From an uncultured bacterium (lineage in GTDB: Bacteria > Hydrogenedentota > Hydrogenedentia > Hydrogenedentales > CAILVY01), in contig CALEDJ010000069.1 in NCBI GenBank assembly GCA_937951485.1, positions 1 to 6,776 on the forward strand: a stretch of 6,776 bases of DNA, read 5' to 3'. Both the position numbers and the translations under genes were made by a program. This document shows positions 1 through 6,776 of the stretch, piece by piece; positions within the stretch are counted from its first letter, which is position 1; every line of letters starts with the position of its first letter. Under the pieces are notes generated by a model. It made no database searches, had not been told where the DNA came from, and worked only from the letters and a program-made list of their open reading frames with translations.

Positions 1-108
1 GCAGGTGGCAAGATAAACGCCCTCTCCCTCCGGGAGAGGGAGCAACGGCATTCCGCAGGTGGCAAGATAAACGCCCTCTCCCTCCGGGAGAGGGGTGGGG
101 TGAGGGGG
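1..108. repeat. 54-bp tandem repeat array, left edge (about two units, inverted relative to the right array)
   Basis: Two tandem copies of a 54-bp unit start at 1 and 55; the second diverges after its palindrome. Each unit carries a palindrome (20-40 and 74-94) with 9-bp arms CCCTCTCCC / GGGAGAGGG around a 3-nt loop TCC. Read on the minus strand, the unit matches the right-edge array (6565-6776), including the flanking words that read there as GTTTACC, CACCTGC and AATGC. The array probably continues left of the window. No open frame or T-tract suggests coding or simple terminator function. The 54-bp spacing with a hairpin in every unit fits an intergenic REP/MITE-like repeat. It lacks the unique spacers of a CRISPR array. 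Confidence 0.85.
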
Positions 109-280
109 AACAAAACAGGCACCCCTGGTACACGGGTCAATGATATCTCAGAAATGCCCAAGGAGTGGTTTACGCATAGGACAAGCCCGCCATATCATCT
201 TGATTCCACAGGATTTTCCAAGAGTCCTGGGCATGGTCTTTCATCCTCTTAATAATCCGTTTTGGACAACATTGATTCAG
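68..280 (+). repeat. Left arm of a ~215-bp imperfect inverted repeat
   Basis: This segment matches the reverse complement of 6379-6591 nearly end to end. An eye alignment gives roughly 36 differences in about 216 positions, with only one or two single-base gaps. Identical blocks include the 17-mer at 127-143 (GGTACACGGGTCAATGA, repeated inverted at 6516-6532), AAGCCCGCCA, TTTTCCAAGAG and CTTAATAAT. Matching starts inside the 54-bp unit and ends abruptly near 280, so the tandem repeat and the unique arm form one composite. The arm overlaps the 3' end of the minus-strand reading frame at 170-547. Confidence 0.9.
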
Positions 281-547
281 CAACAAGTCTTCTTCAACCA
301 AATATGCCTCACCCACAATCTGGCACATGGCTTCGGTTTGCACAACGCAGGGGATCGCCGTCACATACATCGCATGAAGTGCCACCGTGACCGCCGCGCC
401 CAAAAACTCGGGTTCCCGGAGCGGGAACTGATTCGGCATCCCCCTGCGAAGCAGATCACAGACAAATACGGTGTGCGTTCTCCCCATGGGTCTTTCTCGT
501 TCTCCGCTGCGTTTTTCTTCGGCTTGGACTTCTGCCGGATGGCGCAT
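170..547 (-). CDS. Small hypothetical protein (125 aa; 105 aa from the internal ATG at 487), overlapping the repeat arm
   Basis: A minus-strand frame is open from 547 to a TAA at 170-172. I recognise no family. The first ~20 residues are charged and low-complexity (Glu/Arg-rich). The middle (LGAAVTVALHAMYVTA) looks protein-like and mildly hydrophobic, and the last ~28 residues are basic and Trp-containing. An ATG at 487 is a plausible shorter start, but neither start has a convincing Shine-Dalgarno sequence. The last ~30 codons lie in the inverted-repeat arm; the right arm keeps the same frame over that stretch, but most base changes alter the amino acid and the stop is lost. That argues against purifying selection. 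It may be a decayed gene end carried by the repeat, or chance. Confidence 0.3.
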   Translation of the reverse strand: MRHPAEVQAEEKRSGERERPMGRTHTVFVCDLLRRGMPNQFPLREPEFLGAAVTVALHAMYVTAIPCVVQTEAMCQIVGEAYLVEEDLLLNQCCPKRIIKRMKDHAQDSWKILWNQDDMAGLSYA

Positions 548-579
548 TTCATTGAAATCGGCACGCCATCCGATCCGTT

Positions 580-704
580 CGTCATTGCGGGCGGTGCGAG
601 GTGGTGCGCCACAGCGCGTGACAATCTGTCATACGTCAGGCAAGGCTGACTATTTGAGATTGCTTCACTCGGCGGCCCAGAACGCCGCTTTGCTCGCAAC
701 GACG
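580..704. repeat. Palindromic dispersed-repeat-like element (~125 bp)
   Basis: The ends are imperfect inverted copies: CGTCATTGCGGGC at 580-592 against the complement of the region ending CTCGCAACGACG at 704. Inside, GACAATCT (near 630) faces GAGATTGCTTC (near 656-666). The pattern 'GTCATTGCGAG ... GAAGCAATC' and its mirror resembles a short palindromic repeat often seen between genes in environmental bacterial genomes (from memory, not searched). It would fold into a long imperfect hairpin. It lies just outside the small frame at 170-547 and upstream of the regulator gene, and has no coding signal of its own. Confidence 0.65.
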
Positions 705-710
705 ATTTTG

Positions 711-743
711 TGTTGTGGCTTGGTCAGAAGGCCGGCCACAACA
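711..743. other. Perfect 9-bp stem hairpin in the regulator's upstream region
   Basis: TGTTGTGGC (711-719) and GCCACAACA (735-743) form a perfect stem with a 15-nt loop containing GGCC. No T-tract follows on either strand, so it is not a standard intrinsic terminator. It could be an RNA structure or a binding site. The stretch from 744 to about 900 shows nothing else recognisable. Confidence 0.4.
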
Positions 744-902
744 CCTGGGATCCTTCCTGTCCTGACTGTTCCCTTAATTTCCCCTGTCTCACCAGAGATG
801 CGTCCCCGGACGATCGGAGCCAGTCGGCGCGCGCATCACGATCATGATGCCAATCGGTCTTCCCTGTTTTGGACGCACGCCCGTTTCTCAAGGACCTTGG
901 TG

Positions 903-932
903 GATATCATAGTTGATATTGTCAGATATTGT
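903..932. promoter_or_regulatory. Candidate operator: GATAT repeats upstream of the WYL regulator
   Basis: An AT-rich island in GC-rich DNA holds three GATAT words at 903, 915 and 925. Two form a perfect direct repeat GATATTGT (915-922 and 925-932) with a 10-bp period, one helical turn. ATATCA (904-909) and TGATAT (914-919) form a perfect inverted repeat with a 4-bp spacer. It lies about 75-100 bp upstream of the best promoter candidate for the regulator, so an autoregulatory or activator site is plausible. The function is inferred. Confidence 0.35.
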
Positions 933-1005
933 TCTCCATTCTTTGCTTTATACATGCCGCTCATTAAAATGATTTTTCCTGAATGATTGTTGCTTCCATC
1001 GCTGT

Positions 1006-1035
1006 TTGCAAAATATGAACCCAAGCGCCTATAAA
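1006..1035 (+). promoter_or_regulatory. Candidate sigma70-type promoter of the WYL regulator gene
   Basis: TTGCAA (1006-1011) and TATAAA (1030-1035) are separated by 18 bp and resemble -35 and -10 boxes. Transcription would begin near 1042, giving a leader of about 55 nt before the ATG at 1099. No better pair was found between 930 and 1080. Confidence 0.4.
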
Positions 1036-1039
1036 GGTA

Positions 1040-1082
1040 CCCCTTAGGCTTTCCATTTCCCGGAAAATGTTGGGGCCTTTTT
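1040..1082 (+). promoter_or_regulatory. Possible leader hairpin with U-tract ahead of the regulator (weak attenuator candidate)
   Basis: In the short leader, CCCC (1040-1043) can pair with GGGG (1072-1075), enclosing TTTCC (1050-1054) against GGAAA (1062-1066). Two bases later comes TTTTT (1078-1082), and then the ribosome binding site. The layout resembles an intrinsic terminator or attenuator, but the stem is interrupted and the predicted transcription start is close to the 5' arm. Confidence 0.2.
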
Positions 1083-1092
1083 GGGAGGGAGA
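1083..1092 (+). promoter_or_regulatory. Ribosome binding site fixing the WYL regulator start at 1099
   Basis: GGGAGGGAGA ends 6 bases before the ATG at 1099. The longer frame could open at TTG 1081, but that codon lies directly before this purine-rich Shine-Dalgarno sequence and has none of its own, so the ATG is preferred. Confidence 0.75.
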
Positions 1093-1098
1093 TTGGCC

Positions 1099-2112
1099 AT
1101 GGAGAGGAGCAGAAATCCGTATCTTACGCCCGGACTGCGCCTGTTGAACTGCTACATCCTGCTCTGTTCGGGAAACCGCGCGTATACGCTGGGCCGCCTG
1201 GCGGAAATACTGCAATGCTCGCGGCAGACGGTGCTCCGCATGATGGGGCAGATCGCGCTGTTGCCCGGCGTGGAACTGGAGAGTTGGATTGATCACGGCG
1301 AGCGCCGCTACCAGGTGAAACCACAGCAGCGGATGAGGGTGGTGAGCCTGGACATTGAATCCATCCGTCACCTCCTGCTGTGCCGCGACATCGTCCGGCA
1401 TCTTCTTCCCGCACCGTTACAGGAAGAGATTCGGCACACCATCGGCGCGGCAACGGTGCTGCTTGCGGAACGCGGCGAGGATATGCAACCGCTGAATTCG
1501 TACGCGGAAGTGCAAACAAAAGGGGCCATAGACTACACGCCGTTTCAACGGCATCTGGACACGATCCAAACGGCCATGCAGCGCCGACAGGTCTGCCAGG
1601 TGGGATACCGTTCGAAAATTCAGGAACCGGAAAAGATTTTTCGCATTGCGCCGTTGAAGATTGTGGCTTTCCGCGAGGCGCTCTATGTGAAATGCTGGGT
1701 GCTTGACAAGAAGGGCCGCCCCGATCATCCCAAACCCATCAACCTCGCCATCCACCGCATTCGCGTGTTGAAACCGCTGCCGCAGACGTTTTCCCCGGAT
1801 TTGGCGACAAGCGATACCGATTCGAGTTTTTTCGGATTTCAGTTCAATGAACCGTTTCAGGTCAAAGCGGTCTTCTCCCCCGAGGTCGCCACCTACGTCA
1901 GCGAGCGCACCTGGAGCCGCGACCAGCGCATTCGCCGCCGCAAGGACGGCAGCATCGTGCTGACTTTTACGACCACAAGCCGTCCAGAAACCATTTCCTG
2001 GATCATGAGTTTCGGGCCGGAAGCCGAACTGCTGGAGCCGAAAAACCTTCGCGACGAACTCCGCACCGCCCTCAAGCGCGCCGCCGGCCGCTATCAAAAC
2101 ACCGGTCGGTGA
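1099..2112 (+). CDS. WYL-domain transcriptional regulator with N-terminal helix-turn-helix
   Basis: This is a 337-residue cytoplasmic DNA-binding regulator. Residues ~28-55 form a winged-helix HTH of the HTH_11/DeoR-like type (YTLGRLAEILQCSRQTVLRMM), followed by a linker with a helical segment. Residues ~140-225 match a WYL sensor domain: an RIAPLKIV strand, then ALYVKCWVLDKKGR, and a closing AIHRIRVL. The signature W-Y-L reads L-Y-V (about 195-197), so the tyrosine is kept but the tryptophan is lost. Residues ~250-325 fit the WCX extension (FQVKAVFSPEVATYVSERTW, then ILSF-like WIMSFGPEAELLEP). Length and domain order are normal for the family. WYL domains commonly bind nucleic acid or nucleotide-like ligands and control varied regulons; no ligand can be inferred. 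The gene converges on the ceramidase-like gene with a 44-bp gap, so it is not in that operon. Confidence 0.9.
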   Translation: MERSRNPYLTPGLRLLNCYILLCSGNRAYTLGRLAEILQCSRQTVLRMMGQIALLPGVELESWIDHGERRYQVKPQQRMRVVSLDIESIRHLLLCRDIVRHLLPAPLQEEIRHTIGAATVLLAERGEDMQPLNSYAEVQTKGAIDYTPFQRHLDTIQTAMQRRQVCQVGYRSKIQEPEKIFRIAPLKIVAFREALYVKCWVLDKKGRPDHPKPINLAIHRIRVLKPLPQTFSPDLATSDTDSSFFGFQFNEPFQVKAVFSPEVATYVSERTWSRDQRIRRRKDGSIVLTFTTTSRPETISWIMSFGPEAELLEPKNLRDELRTALKRAAGRYQNTGR

Positions 2113-2156
2113 ATCCGGTCCGTCGTTGCCGGTCTGCGGATTGCGCGCAGGATGGC

Positions 2157-3434
2157 CTACTGTGTTGCCAGCGCAATTGCCTTTTCCTGCATCAGCGTTC
2201 CGAGCGTCTCGCCGTAGAAGGAAGCGGTCACCTCGTAGCCGCTGCGGCGGTATTCCTCGGGGGTGAGAATATAACCGATACTGTCGGTGGTGAGGCTGGC
2301 GACACAGGGATACGCGACGCCCGCGCCGCGCATGACCTCCTTGATCGCGCCGCCGATTTCGCAGATGGGTTCGCCGGGGAAGGTGATCATCTGGAAATCA
2401 TTGACGCGAAGGGCATAAAGCGGCGCGCGGCTGGGAAACATTACCGGCAACAGCATCTCCAGTTGTTCCTGGGTGACGTGGTATTCGCTCCCGGCAATTT
2501 TGACAAAATCCGGCGCCGGTCGGGGCGTCGGCAGGTCCAGCCATTCCGACCGGACTGTAAAACGATCCACATCCGCCGTCTTCACGCCGTCCCACAGCCG
2601 CGCGGCATGGATGCCCACGCGCCGGCCATAGTATTCTGCCATCTCCCAGCGGCTTCCCCCCTGCGCGCCTTTTGGCGATATGTCTCCCAGCGCGCCATTG
2701 ACGAACAGGCACGTCACGCCCGGTCCCGTCAACGCCTCGACGGTCCGCTGCATGACGCCCGCCCAGCCGCCGGATACCAGCATCTCGCGCTCGGTCATGA
2801 TGGTGCCGTGCGCGGTGTAGTTCACCAGCGCCACATACGGCGCGCCGTCGGCGAGGTCCAGACGCAGCACCGTCAAATCTTCGTCCACACACGCGGCGTT
2901 GCGGCGGTTGCGGTTCATATCGGGCAATCGGACTTGTCCCGCGCCGGCGCGCACCGGCTGCAACGCACTGTCGGCCTCGCGCAGGCACTGTGCCAACCGT
3001 TCGGTCACGAATTGCAGCAGTTCTTCCGAAAAGATGCCGATATGCGGATTATTTGCGATGTTGCGGCGGTCCAGCGCGAAACCCTCCAGCCCTGCGTGCG
3101 TGTGGCTCGCCGCCATCATCACCCGGTCCAGCGTCAGCCCGTCAATCCCGGCCTTTGCCACGCTATCTTCGACAAGACCTATGGGCAGCCCGCACACGTC
3201 CAGCGCGACCAGCGCCGATTTCTCGCCGCCGCGCTCAAAGACCAGCGCCTTGGCGTAGATTGTGTCGTGAATTCCTTCGGCGGGTTTGCCGGCGCGCGCG
3301 CCATAGCCGCCCAACGGCGTCGTCATACCGACTTCCAATGGCGTGATGCTGATTCGCGCCACGCCTGCATTCAGTTGAGCGACGGCCGGCGTACACATGC
3401 ACGCCAGCAGCAAAACAATAATCAACTTTTTCAT
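2157..3434 (-). CDS. Secreted neutral/alkaline ceramidase-family hydrolase, single catalytic domain
   Basis: A 425-residue exported protein. Residues 1-19 are a signal peptide (MKKLIIVLLLACMC...AVA, cleavage before Gln20). Cys12 after LLA also allows a lipoprotein reading. The mature part matches the N-terminal catalytic domain of neutral ceramidases (PF04734): GVARISITP (24-32), LGGYGAR, SHTHAG (110-115, His111/His113), NYTAHGT with His209, GDISP (250-254) with the likely nucleophile Ser253, PGEP with Glu355, and GYILTPEEY with Tyr388. These correspond to the zinc ligands and catalytic Ser known from bacterial ceramidase, so the active site looks intact. The C-terminal Ig-like domain of classical ceramidases (~650 aa) is absent. 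The family cleaves the amide bond of ceramide, but many environmental members have unknown substrates. GAGG lies 8 bases before the ATG. It sits downstream of, and on the same strand as, the GH127 gene. Confidence 0.88.
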   Translation of the reverse strand: MKKLIIVLLLACMCTPAVAQLNAGVARISITPLEVGMTTPLGGYGARAGKPAEGIHDTIYAKALVFERGGEKSALVALDVCGLPIGLVEDSVAKAGIDGLTLDRVMMAASHTHAGLEGFALDRRNIANNPHIGIFSEELLQFVTERLAQCLREADSALQPVRAGAGQVRLPDMNRNRRNAACVDEDLTVLRLDLADGAPYVALVNYTAHGTIMTEREMLVSGGWAGVMQRTVEALTGPGVTCLFVNGALGDISPKGAQGGSRWEMAEYYGRRVGIHAARLWDGVKTADVDRFTVRSEWLDLPTPRPAPDFVKIAGSEYHVTQEQLEMLLPVMFPSRAPLYALRVNDFQMITFPGEPICEIGGAIKEVMRGAGVAYPCVASLTTDSIGYILTPEEYRRSGYEVTASFYGETLGTLMQEKAIALATQ

Positions 3435-3456
3435 TGAATGAACCTCGCACGTTGTG

Positions 3457-3515
3457 CACGCTTCAGCGTGCCGACTTTTTCAGTCATCCTCGGTTCTTTG
3501 GCATGCTGAAACGTG
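3457..3515 (-). other. Strong intercistronic hairpin between GH127 and ceramidase genes
   Basis: CACGCTTCAGCGTGCC (3457-3472) and GGCATGCTGAAACGTG (3500-3515) are inverted copies. They would form a 16-bp stem (14 Watson-Crick pairs, one G-U and one mismatch) around a 27-nt loop in the minus-strand transcript. The 3457-3472 side alone also folds as GCACGC-TTCA-GCGTGC (3456-3471). No U-tract follows, so it is more likely an RNA stabiliser, processing site or REP-like repeat than a full terminator. It fills most of the 92-bp gap and could set different expression for the two genes. Confidence 0.6.
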
Positions 3516-3526
3516 AACAACATACA

Positions 3527-5959
3527 TTACTCCGGAATGCGCCATTCGAGGATGCCGCCGGAGAATTCCGGTTGCAGTTGAACCTGCAGGCGCAGCGCGC
3601 CGGTGCGCACCGGCGCGAATTCGGCCCTGTTGAATCGGTCTCTTTCGCAGGGATAATCGCCCTTCGCGTTCACGGGTTTCCAGATGTTTGCTTCTTTATG
3701 GAGCACACGCCAGGACTTCGGCACGCGGCACTGGCCCTGCCCGGTGTCATCGAACCAATAGACTTCCACCGCTGCGACTTCCGTTTCTTCAGCCAAATCG
3801 TACTGCACCCATTCCGAAGTACCCTTACGGTCCCACCAGGTAAAGCGCGGAATGGAATGGTCGTTGGAGTTCTTCGGTTCGACCTGGTCATTCAGGGCCG
3901 CAAGCGTATCGGATGGGTTCATGTATGAGGCGCTTGGGCGGCTCCGTGCGGCGAGGGTGGGTCGGGGCGGCACGCGCGCCGCGTTCGGATGGCGCGCCAG
4001 CCACACCGTCATCTCGCCTTCGCCGCGATGCGCCCATGCATAATAGGGAATCGCCATGAAGTCCTGGTCGCGCATTTCAATTTCGCCGCCGTCATCGGCG
4101 CGGTGGATCGCCTTGGCGCAGCCTTCAATCACCGTGATGCCGCGCAGGAGGTCCGGGGCGTGGCGCGCCGAAAGCGGCGCATCGTCGGGCAGGATAATGT
4201 TGAGCGCGCGGCCGCCATTGTCCACCCATTCCGCGCAATAGACCAGCGGACCGCGTTCCAGTGCGACCCGCCCGCGATTGTCGGCGACCTGTTCATTTGC
4301 CAGCACGCGGCGAACTGGCATGGGAAGCTGCACCGCCACCCTGTCCCCCGCCTTCCAGGTGCGCGTGATGCGGGCAAAGCCCTTGTCAATATTCAGCGGC
4401 GCGGCCTCACCGTTCACGGACAAGGCAATGGGTTCCGCTGCAGCGTCGAGATAGTGGTAGAGATCGCTTGGGAGCGGCCGCCCCTGCGCCCATCCGGGGA
4501 TGCGGACGCAGAGTGTGAAATCCGTTACAGCCTCCGGCGATACGGTGATGCGCACCGCGCCGTCCCAGGGATATTGGGTCTCCTGCGTAATGACTATGGG
4601 CTGATTATGCAGGGTCATGTGGGCTGAACCGGCGATGAAAAGGCCGACATAGATATCGTTGTCGCGCTGGGCGTACACATAACCTGGCAAGGAGGCTACG
4701 AATCTCACGACATTCGTCGGACAACACGCGCAGTCGAACCACGGTTGCCGCGATACGCGCCCCTGATTGAACGCATACAGCCCGTCGGATTCCAGCGGAT
4801 TCGGGTAGAAATAGGTGGTTCCATCGAAGCCCACGCCGCTTAGAAATCCGTTGTACAACGTACGCTCCAGGACGTCGAGGTACTTGGCATCGCCGTGCAG
4901 CAGGAAGAGCCGGTGATTCCACAGGACATTCGCGATGGCCGCGCAGGTCTCGTTGTACGCGCTGTGGTTGGGCAGTTCATACGCGTCGCCGAAGGCTTCC
5001 CCGTGGCGCCGCGCGCCGATGCCGCCGGTGATGTAGAGTTTCTTCGAGACCACGTTGTCCCAGATGCGGCCGATGGCCGCGATGTACGCCGTGTCCCCGG
5101 TCAATGCCGCAACATCCGCAACGCCCGCGTAGAAATAACCGGCGCGCACGGCATGGCCCACCGCCTCGTCCTGTTCGACCACGGGTTTGTGGTCCTGGCA
5201 GTATTCGCCGAAGAGTTCACGGTGTTCGGCGCGGCCACGCTGGTCTATGAAAAACCTCGCCAGTTGCAGGTAGCGCTCATCGCCGGTGACCCGGTAGAGT
5301 TTTGAGAGGCCAATCTCGATCTCCTGATGGCCTGGGACTGCATATTTCTTGCCGGGACCAAAAACCTGGCCAATCAGGTCGGCGTTTTTGATGGCGATGT
5401 CGAGGAAATTGCGTTTGCCGGTGGCGAGGTAATGCGCGACGGCCGCCTCGTACATGTGGCCGACGTTGTAAAGTTCATGGCTGTGTTGGAGATGCGACCA
5501 GCGCTCCCTGCCGCTGCCGGGCTGCGGGTTTTCCGGGTCAATGGTGCGGCTGGTGTAGAGATAGCCGTCGGGTTCCTGCGCCGCCGCAAATTTGGCGATG
5601 AGGTCGTCGAGGCAGGCGTCAAGCGCCGGATCGGGATGCAGGCTCAGACAATACGCCGCGCCTTCCACCACCTTGAACACGTCCGAGTCGTTGAAGAATA
5701 TCCCCTCGAACTTGCCGGGCATCAGTCCGCCCGCCTTGGCGAAATTGTCAATGCGCCCCGTCTCCTCGCATTTCCTGAAATTGTGGGGCAGCGTTACCGT
5801 GCGGTTGGTTTCCAGGCGCGGCGCCCAAAATGTATCGCGAAACATTACTTGGGTGAATGGCGCGGGACGAATCGGGTAATCGCCCGCCGAGGCCGCTGAA
5901 CCTGCAATCATCATCATAAGCGCAAGCGCTCCCATCAATGACCTGCTGAACATGGGCAT
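3527..5959 (-). CDS. Secreted GH127 (DUF1680) beta-L-arabinofuranosidase-type glycoside hydrolase with C-terminal beta-sandwich domain
   Basis: An 810-residue exported enzyme. Residues 1-25 are a signal peptide (hydrophobic LMGALALMMMIAG, then ASA before Gly-Asp). Residues ~30-420 form the (alpha/alpha)6-barrel catalytic part of GH127. In HypBA1 from Bifidobacterium longum, a Cys nucleophile and zinc bound by Glu and three Cys do the chemistry. Here GEAFG gives acid/base Glu321, YNETCA gives Glu337 and Cys339, and DCACCPTN gives Cys412/Cys413, with spacing equal to HypBA1 for the two Glu. Residues ~425-655 are the usual beta-sandwich domains (RIPGWA; GDRVAVQLPMPVRRV; RVALERGPLVYC). Residues ~675-810, beyond the usual ~650, look like a galactose-binding/F5-8-type sandwich (WVQYDL, VEVYWFDD, ALRLQVQL), probably glycan-binding. 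Likely substrates are beta-L-arabinofuranose-containing or related plant/algal glycans; related families act on other deoxy sugars. It is probably first in an operon with the ceramidase-like gene. The ATG at 5959 is chosen over the GTG at 5974. Confidence 0.93.
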   Translation of the reverse strand: MPMFSRSLMGALALMMMIAGSAASAGDYPIRPAPFTQVMFRDTFWAPRLETNRTVTLPHNFRKCEETGRIDNFAKAGGLMPGKFEGIFFNDSDVFKVVEGAAYCLSLHPDPALDACLDDLIAKFAAAQEPDGYLYTSRTIDPENPQPGSGRERWSHLQHSHELYNVGHMYEAAVAHYLATGKRNFLDIAIKNADLIGQVFGPGKKYAVPGHQEIEIGLSKLYRVTGDERYLQLARFFIDQRGRAEHRELFGEYCQDHKPVVEQDEAVGHAVRAGYFYAGVADVAALTGDTAYIAAIGRIWDNVVSKKLYITGGIGARRHGEAFGDAYELPNHSAYNETCAAIANVLWNHRLFLLHGDAKYLDVLERTLYNGFLSGVGFDGTTYFYPNPLESDGLYAFNQGRVSRQPWFDCACCPTNVVRFVASLPGYVYAQRDNDIYVGLFIAGSAHMTLHNQPIVITQETQYPWDGAVRITVSPEAVTDFTLCVRIPGWAQGRPLPSDLYHYLDAAAEPIALSVNGEAAPLNIDKGFARITRTWKAGDRVAVQLPMPVRRVLANEQVADNRGRVALERGPLVYCAEWVDNGGRALNIILPDDAPLSARHAPDLLRGITVIEGCAKAIHRADDGGEIEMRDQDFMAIPYYAWAHRGEGEMTVWLARHPNAARVPPRPTLAARSRPSASYMNPSDTLAALNDQVEPKNSNDHSIPRFTWWDRKGTSEWVQYDLAEETEVAAVEVYWFDDTGQGQCRVPKSWRVLHKEANIWKPVNAKGDYPCERDRFNRAEFAPVRTGALRLQVQLQPEFSGGILEWRIPE

Positions 5960-5966
5960 TCCAAAA

Positions 5967-5972
5967 CCTCCC
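5967..5972 (-). promoter_or_regulatory. Ribosome binding site fixing the GH127 start at 5959
   Basis: On the minus strand GGGAGG lies 7 bases before the ATG at 5959. The upstream in-frame GTG (5974) overlaps this sequence and so cannot use it. The ATG at 5953 would be 13 bases away, too far. The chosen start also leaves a compact, normal signal peptide. Confidence 0.8.
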
Positions 5973-6015
5973 ACAGGCGCATCCGCGTTTGGCAGGCGGG
6001 CGTCTTCTTGACCCC

Positions 6016-6044
6016 ATACTACGGGATTTTTTCTTGTGCATCAA
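6016..6044 (-). promoter_or_regulatory. Candidate sigma70-type promoter for the GH127-ceramidase unit
   Basis: On the minus strand TTGATG (6044-6039) and TAGTAT (6021-6016) are separated by 17 bp, close to the -35/-10 consensus. Transcription would start near 6009, giving a leader of about 50 nt to the ATG at 5959. The rest of the 5960-6219 gap shows no gene, only a few T-runs and no clear operator. Confidence 0.45.
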
Positions 6045-6219
6045 AATGAGGGTGACTTTCCCGTCATACTTTGGATAAGAATCGCCCATGTGGGATGTAG
6101 AGGGATTGACCCAAAAAAGTGTTTCACCCCGGACGCGGTGCAACACGACACCATCTTATATGCGCCGAAGCGTATCAAAAAAACTCTGAGCCGGATTACG
6201 ACCGGAGGCACAACCTGTT

Positions 6220-6372
6220 TCAGGATTCCGGCAGAATCCGGATGGTCATTGCGTTGACCTCTCCCGTCACGGTCAATTCTCCTTCGACAATCACCCGGTC
6301 ACCCGGAAGAAGGTCCCCTTCACAGCCATCCCATAGACTGACAGAACGACATCCCGTTGGCCATTGCTTATA
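6220..6372 (-). pseudogene. Start-less 3' gene remnant, possibly the end of an OB-fold-like protein
   Basis: The minus-strand frame from 6372 to a TGA at 6222-6220 encodes about 50 residues ending in SLWDGCEGDLLPGDRV, IVEGELTVTGEVNAM and TIRILPES. The alternation of short beta-strands with a GD-x-V turn reads like the C-terminus of a small beta-barrel, such as an OB fold; I cannot name a family. No ATG exists in the frame, and a TAG stands directly upstream at 6375-6373. This break falls within a few bases of the inner end of the right inverted-repeat arm (about 6379). The simplest reading is a gene whose 5' part was displaced when the repeat arrived. A different frame is also open upstream (ITCSISNGQRDVVLSVYG), so a frameshift is possible. 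Confidence 0.4.
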
Positions 6373-6378
6373 CTACAG

Positions 6379-6591
6379 GTGATTTCAATGTTTTCCAAAA
6401 CATATTATTAAGAAGGTGAAAGCCCATGCCCGAAACTCTTGGAAAATTTTGTTGAATCAAGGTGATGTGGCGGGCTTATCCCATACACAAACCTCTCCGT
6501 GGGATTCCTGAGACGTCATTGACCCGTGTACCAAGGTGTTCTGTTTTGTTTCCCCTCACCCCACCCCTCTCCCAATGGGAGAGGGTGTTTA
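6379..6591 (-). repeat. Right arm of the ~215-bp imperfect inverted repeat
   Basis: This is the reverse-complement partner of 68-280. The plus strand here runs in the same direction as the left arm's minus strand. Over the part corresponding to the small left frame (plus strand, about 6385-6490) it stays open in the equivalent frame, giving IIKKVKAHARNSWKILL against the left IIKRMKDHAQDSWKILW. It has many amino-acid changes and no stop at the same place. The inner end is at about 6379, and the outer end merges into the first 54-bp repeat unit. Confidence 0.9.
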
Positions 6592-6776
6592 CCGCACAAC
6601 CTGCGTAATGCTGTCGCTCCCTCTCACAGCGGGAGAAGGCGTTTACCGCGCCACCTCCGGCATGCTGTTGCTCCCTCTCCCTCCGGGAGAGGGTGTTTAC
6701 CGCGCAACCTGCGTAATGCTGTCGCTCCCTCTCCCTCCGGGAGAGGGTGTTTACCGCACAACCTGCGTAATGCTGT
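6565..6776. repeat. 54-bp tandem repeat array, right edge (three full units plus a partial one)
   Basis: Units start at 6565, 6619, 6673 and 6727; the last is cut by the window end after 50 bases. Each unit opens with a hairpin made of CCCTCTCCC-like and GGGAGAGGG-like arms, followed by GTTTACCGC, CACCTGC- or CAACCTGC-like, and AATGCTGT. Units 1, 3 and 4 are nearly identical outside the loop (AAT in unit 1, TCC in units 3 and 4). Unit 2 is the most diverged but keeps a foldable stem. The array is the inverted counterpart of 1-108. Confidence 0.9.

Follow-up and report, generated by a model that had tools for sequence, protein, structure and literature searches.

Contig C69 (positions 1–6776) of a 4.55-Mb, 77-contig assembly, analysed here in its entirety as one window of 6,776 nucleotides, carries three genes between inverted arms. 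This arrangement raises the question of whether the arms terminate a single mobile unit, border an invertible segment or are independent insertions of one repeat. A repeat search of the window returned inverted pairs at 3–158/6501–6656 (81% identity) and 157–275/6385–6503 (82% identity). It also returned a tandem array of a 54-bp unit (3.9 units) at 6565–6776, and two units of the same 54-bp repeat lie at 1–94 in the opposite orientation. The arms and mirrored arrays reported in an earlier, sequence-only reading of the window are therefore real, but their limits and relationship differ from that description. The element ends at 274 and 6386, where its TIRs end, and not at 280 and 6379, and the arrays belong to the same element as the arms that they were thought to back. 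The window ends are best explained by a high-copy, non-autonomous DNA transposon (MITE) that inserted independently at each of them. To this explanation as a whole, including the helper and the core dynamics described below, we assign a probability of about 0.92. The window contains the following features; for the left copy, the forward strand is the direction from the array to the B module.

1–274, plus strand: left MITE copy (array end, triplex motif, B module and right TIR), cut by the contig start, with its TIR ending at 274
20–40, plus strand: hairpin CCCTCTCCC-TCC-GGGAGAGGG of an array unit
74–106, plus strand: last hairpin and third strand, an exact sequence match to the triplex consensus (PMC4666352)
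109–274, plus strand: B module of the left copy, the previously described arm
170–547, minus strand: GGCT/AIG2-like reading frame with its 3′ end inside the left copy (weak Pfam match, E = 2e-4)
260–274, minus strand: TIR CAATGTTGTCCAAAA, read inward, with one mismatch to the consensus
275–283, no strand: expected half of the left copy's 9-bp target duplication, ATTCAGCAA
1081–2112, plus strand: WYL/WCX-domain transcriptional regulator, bystander
2157–3434, minus strand: protein with a neutral-ceramidase N-terminal-like domain, bystander
3527–5956, minus strand: GH127-family glycoside hydrolase (beta-L-arabinofuranosidase-like), bystander
6320–6384, minus strand: remnant (65 bp) of the left end of another IS4-type IS, with the TIR CACAGCCATCCCATAG, adjoining the right MITE copy
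6377–6385, no strand: expected half of the right copy's 9-bp target duplication, CAGGTGATT, from the sequence
6386–6776, minus strand: right MITE copy (TIR, B module, triplex motif and array), cut by the contig end
6386–6550, minus strand: B module of the right copy
6553–6585, minus strand: triplex motif of the right copy, by sequence match to the consensus (PMC4666352)
6565–6776, minus strand: 54-bp hairpin minisatellite (3.9 units), from the repeat search

Inverted arms at the two ends of one contig

A genome search with the arm gave 40 full-length matches with E values from 2e-98 to 2e-40, far beyond chance, and the array part gave many more. C69 terminates inside this high-copy repeat, within arrays, at both ends. 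Because the window is the entire contig, its bracketed look reflects the points at which the assembly stopped. By our count, in which some copies were recognized by a TIR or motif match alone, approximately 35 of the 154 contig ends have a copy no more than 500 bases away, whereas random placement of roughly 60 copies would by our estimate yield about one. Contigs thus break at the repeat. The assembler breaks at the hairpin arrays, and a contig that stops in a copy on both sides consequently seems to bear paired arms.

The arms are inverted with the genes between them, as in a non-autonomous mobile or amplifiable unit that carries the three genes between its paired ends. Their similarity, however, is ordinary for any two copies. 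The mean pairwise identity of 43 B modules is 0.814, and the window's arm pair, with an identity of 0.818, is at the 53rd percentile among them. Moreover, the nearest relatives of the two arms are found elsewhere, at identities of 0.866 and 0.900. This pattern is predicted for unrelated insertions and not for the ends of one unit. Single complete copies of 216–985 bp also bear their own TIRs and target duplications, and the window is a whole contig that halts inside arrays. Paired transposon ends, in which the arms should be more alike than unrelated copies, were rejected on the basis of arm similarity and the complete single copies, and we regard them as exceedingly improbable. The same two observations led us to reject a 6-kb invertible segment whose arms recombine to flip it. 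Recombination is conceivable for any two inverted copies in one chromosome, and these are 6.1 kb apart, but the arms are just 82% identical, dozens of pairs are equally similar, and no recombinase is visible in the window, as had been stated from the sequence. Inversion occurs only in the 100-bp-scale hairpin core within the element, and inversion of the 6-kb segment is very unlikely.

The remaining option of the sequence-only reading, a dispersed composite repeat that inserted twice, is the correct one: there are dozens of single sites that have their own TIRs and 9-bp duplications. That reading was also right to suggest that no single recent event produced both arms. It had also taken the arm and array occurring singly at many sites, with the three genes syntenic without them, as the mark of a dispersed repeat. 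The first part of this pattern holds, with arm and array present alone at dozens of places; the three genes were not found syntenic without the element. Recognition of the MITE removes a false lead, the bracketed three-gene unit, and explains the breakpoints of the MAG.

The three genes between the copies are bystanders. Among 91 GH127 loci, none has a WYL gene nearby and only two have a distant ceramidase-like neighbour, so the three genes are not a conserved unit, and these loci yielded no truly orthologous empty site. Several Candidatus Hydrogenedentota MAGs, one of them the top match, are among the best named relatives by the GH127 gene. Because this gene also matches other phyla, the assembly is only probably a Hydrogenedentota MAG. 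The last codons of the GGCT/AIG2-like frame, whose Pfam match is just below the cut-off, are derived from the MITE arm. As judged from the sequence, the left copy apparently truncated this GGCT-like gene and fused a new C-terminus to it.

At the other end, the 65-bp IS4-type left end adjoins MITE copies on C69, C25 and C58 at the same base, which suggests a nested or jointly duplicated unit. A degraded IS4-type IS with the same TIR and a broken DUF4372 transposase is found on C58 (75732–75796 onward). The end of a short frame beside the remnant in the window (6213–6319, minus strand; ..GDLLPGDRVIVEGELTVTGEVNAMTIRILPES) resembles the tail of a broken gene.

Anatomy, insertion and proposed mobilization of the MITE

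The complete anatomy of the MITE was read from copies internal to contigs and includes the A-side end that the window lacks. A 15-bp TIR, CAGTG[C/T]TGTCCAAAA or a near variant, is found at both ends of 31 copies, and the TIR pattern has 128 matches in the genome compared with 19 for a reversed control. The modules between the TIRs are arranged in the order A (~53 nt), triplex-type hairpin, a number of spacer-plus-hairpin units, triplex-type hairpin and B (165 nt). The A-side hairpin, CCCTCTCCC-loop-GGGAGAGGG, is preceded by CCCCTCACCCC, and the B-side hairpin is followed by GGGGTGAGGGG. Complete copies have a median length of 438 bp (216–985 bp), contain a variable number of units (0 to at least 6) and consist of non-coding modules throughout, with no transposase gene. 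No conserved RNA structure was detected in the B module (RNAalifold z = 0.03 against column shuffles), and no Rfam family matched in the window.

Several copies depart from this layout. L107 (C29:92444–92659) is a near-perfect palindrome with an A end at each side, and L317 (C15:93400–93680) has a single hairpin and zero spacer units. At two loci, L103 (C23:41221–42205, 985 bp) and L089 (C5:69681–70310), the MITE contains another small repeat, whose ends resemble TGTAACATTTTAGC...GCTAAAATGTTACA; in L103 it lies within the B module. The nested repeat is probably another MITE family.

Target duplications were analysed in the 31 copies with both ends, a set to which the two truncated copies of the window do not belong. 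The 9-bp flanks of these copies have an identity of 0.717, compared with 0.317±0.029 for shuffled pairings, and only 9 stands out among duplication lengths of 4–12. All nine positions match in 6 of the 31 copies, and at least six of nine match in 23, where 0.9 would be expected. The remaining eight copies, with five or fewer of nine positions matching, lack a recognizable duplication, as expected, though not proven, for old or rearranged copies. For the window, the mate of the left copy's half-duplication ATTCAGCAA was not found in the assembly, and that of the right copy's CAGGTGATT was not found among the fetched loci. The GC content is 0.50 in the 60 flanking bases and 0.60 farther away. 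Frames of at least 150 codons span 20 of 30 junctions compared with 111 of 120 control positions; because this is a weak ORF test for interrupted genes, we claim no more than a tendency of the insertions to intergenic, AT-richer sites.

A candidate for the helper was obtained by screening relatives for PF01609. Intact IS4-type elements with MITE-like ends were found in three genomes of the same order (L254, L255 and L256). They are 1323, 1324 and 1328 bp long, terminate in CACTACTGTCC, CACTGCTGTCC and CAGTGCTGTCC and are flanked by the perfect 9-bp duplications CCCGGCAAT, AATATCTAT and TTGTCAAGT, respectively. The L255 transposase combines PF14294 and PF01609 (DUF4372 and DDE_Tnp_1), matches transpos_IS4_1 well above the cut-off and contains, by inspection, the YREK motif YRARWSVELFFKWIK. 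The relatives' IS scores 260.8 bits against NF033592, for which the cut-off is 115. The IS4Sa group is defined by CA------T ends, a length of 1150–1750 bp and a duplication of 8–10 bp (Table 1, PMC2266710), and the relatives' elements conform to it in their ends (CAGTGCTGT, CACTGCTGT and CACTACTGT), their length and their 9-bp duplication. The MITE and these elements have the outermost ~11 bp alone in common, with one or two differences in two of the three relatives.

In the MAG itself, the PF01609 search gave no matches and thus no intact IS4 transposase, and a search with a relative's transposase returned a 45-residue remnant only. Since no intact IS4 transposase is present in the MAG, we infer the helper from its relatives. 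The ends and the duplication length suggest that the MITE was mobilized by an IS4-type group that occurs in intact form elsewhere in the order and whose transposase would have recognized the CAGTGCTGTCC ends. In a genome from another family of the order (G051), three loci (L138, L141 and L146) have a CAGTGCTGTCCAAAACA end in common and differ in their interiors.

The hairpin core and its triplex-type borders

The array units are 0.91 identical within a copy and 0.70 between copies, a difference reached by none of 2000 permutations. Because the units are alike within copies and less so between them, the arrays change locally after insertion, and hairpin units would then be gained and lost by slippage or unequal crossover. 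The spacers are co-oriented within each copy, with no mixed copy among 31. Their direction relative to the element ends varies among copies, with counts of 21 and 10 that are approximate because the orientation is not fixed for copies without a detected arm; reverse-sense spacers are found in L101, L103, L117 and L125, among others, in the module table with orientation fixed.

Copies with ends that are 95–97% identical can carry the core in opposite orientations. In L088 and L120, the A ends are 0.95 and the B ends 0.97 identical, and the core is 0.81 identical in direct alignment but 0.97 identical in inverted alignment. The core is bordered by inverted repeats of ~22 bp, and recombination between them, or template switching, could flip it in this way. 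The inversion between near-identical copies provides a natural record of structure-driven rearrangement.

The core borders exactly match the intrastrand-triplex consensus CCCTCNCCCN3-6GGGNGAGGGN3GGGNGAGGG (PMC4666352) and are putative triplex-forming sequences; triplex formation is documented in vitro, for Escherichia coli sequences only (PMC4666352). The motif occurs 142 times in the genome, compared with zero occurrences of a reversed control pattern, and the pattern was found in just 3 of 69 other genomes searched.

Stand-alone triplex motifs were also observed. One of these three other genomes (G012) contains 33 of them at loci L287–L314, most commonly in the form CCCTCTCCCCGAGGGAGAGGGTCGGGGTGAGGG, and those inspected have unrelated flanks and no MITE. 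Others lie at a few places in the present genome (L320, L324). The triplex motif can thus exist without the MITE.

These stand-alone motifs, with their unrelated flanks in G012, would suit a REP/PIT-type repeat that spreads independently and was merely captured by the MITE, which is compatible with the MITE explanation. Most of the motifs listed in this genome, however, are in or beside TIR-bounded copies, and at least 28 of the 31 complete copies bear the motif at both borders; independent spread of the core is a possibility that we consider unlikely. A more far-reaching and quite doubtful proposal is that the MITE serves as a vehicle for a widespread triplex motif, that the borders promote array expansion and repeated inversion, and that each insertion might act as a self-rearranging switch beside host genes. 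The MITE is a clear example of a transposable element that has target duplications and a triplex-type motif in its interior.

Distribution and comparison with known systems

The MITE family looks lineage-restricted. A search of 119 relatives, including the source genome, returned the arm from that genome only, with two exceptions: a distant genome gave a 24-bp match, and G051, from the same order, contains several TIRs and the outer 66 bp of the arm at 79% identity. An exact 20-mer of the arm had no matches across a genome collection, from which the source genome was possibly left out, and the arm had no match in plasmids and phages.

The element is of a known kind, a MITE that contains a minisatellite, here in a poorly studied phylum; its closest known counterparts are BrickBuilt and BOX. 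The BrickBuilt MITE of Porphyromonas gingivalis (PMC4596501), with 19 copies, likewise has a minisatellite interior between a non-repetitive 'leader' and 'tail' with TIRs, which match an IS family of its host. BrickBuilt has 23-bp units, IS5-type TIRs and target duplications of irregular length, whereas the present MITE has 54-bp hairpin units, IS4-type TIRs, clear 9-bp duplications and an inverting core. The BOX element of Streptococcus pneumoniae (PMC3049150) is organized as boxA, n copies of boxB and boxC, with a variable number of central tandem units as in the MITE, and a similarity of its TIRs to an IS has been proposed (PMC3049150). The likeness to BOX is one of architecture alone, with no sequence relationship claimed, and the MITE differs in its clear 9-bp duplication, G+C-rich hairpin units and triplex-type borders.

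At its ends, the MITE resembles the IS4Sa group (PMC2266710), with C at position 1, A at position 2, T at position 9 and a duplication within the range of 8–10 bp. The intact IS4Sa-like relatives are 1.32 kb long and contain the YREK motif, whereas the MITE lacks a transposase gene and has just the outermost ~11 bp in common with them. The TMECO/PIT triplex motif, known from E. coli and over 260 prokaryotes (PMC4666352), is free-standing and intergenic, and its authors found no association with mobile elements (PMC4666352). In contrast, the motif described here is built into a MITE, with the third strands pointing outward. Since the 2015 survey found no link to mobile DNA, this case offers a testable route for the spread of the motif. 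The triplex-type borders and the core inversion are the less usual features of the present MITE relative to these known systems, the core flip being mildly unusual.
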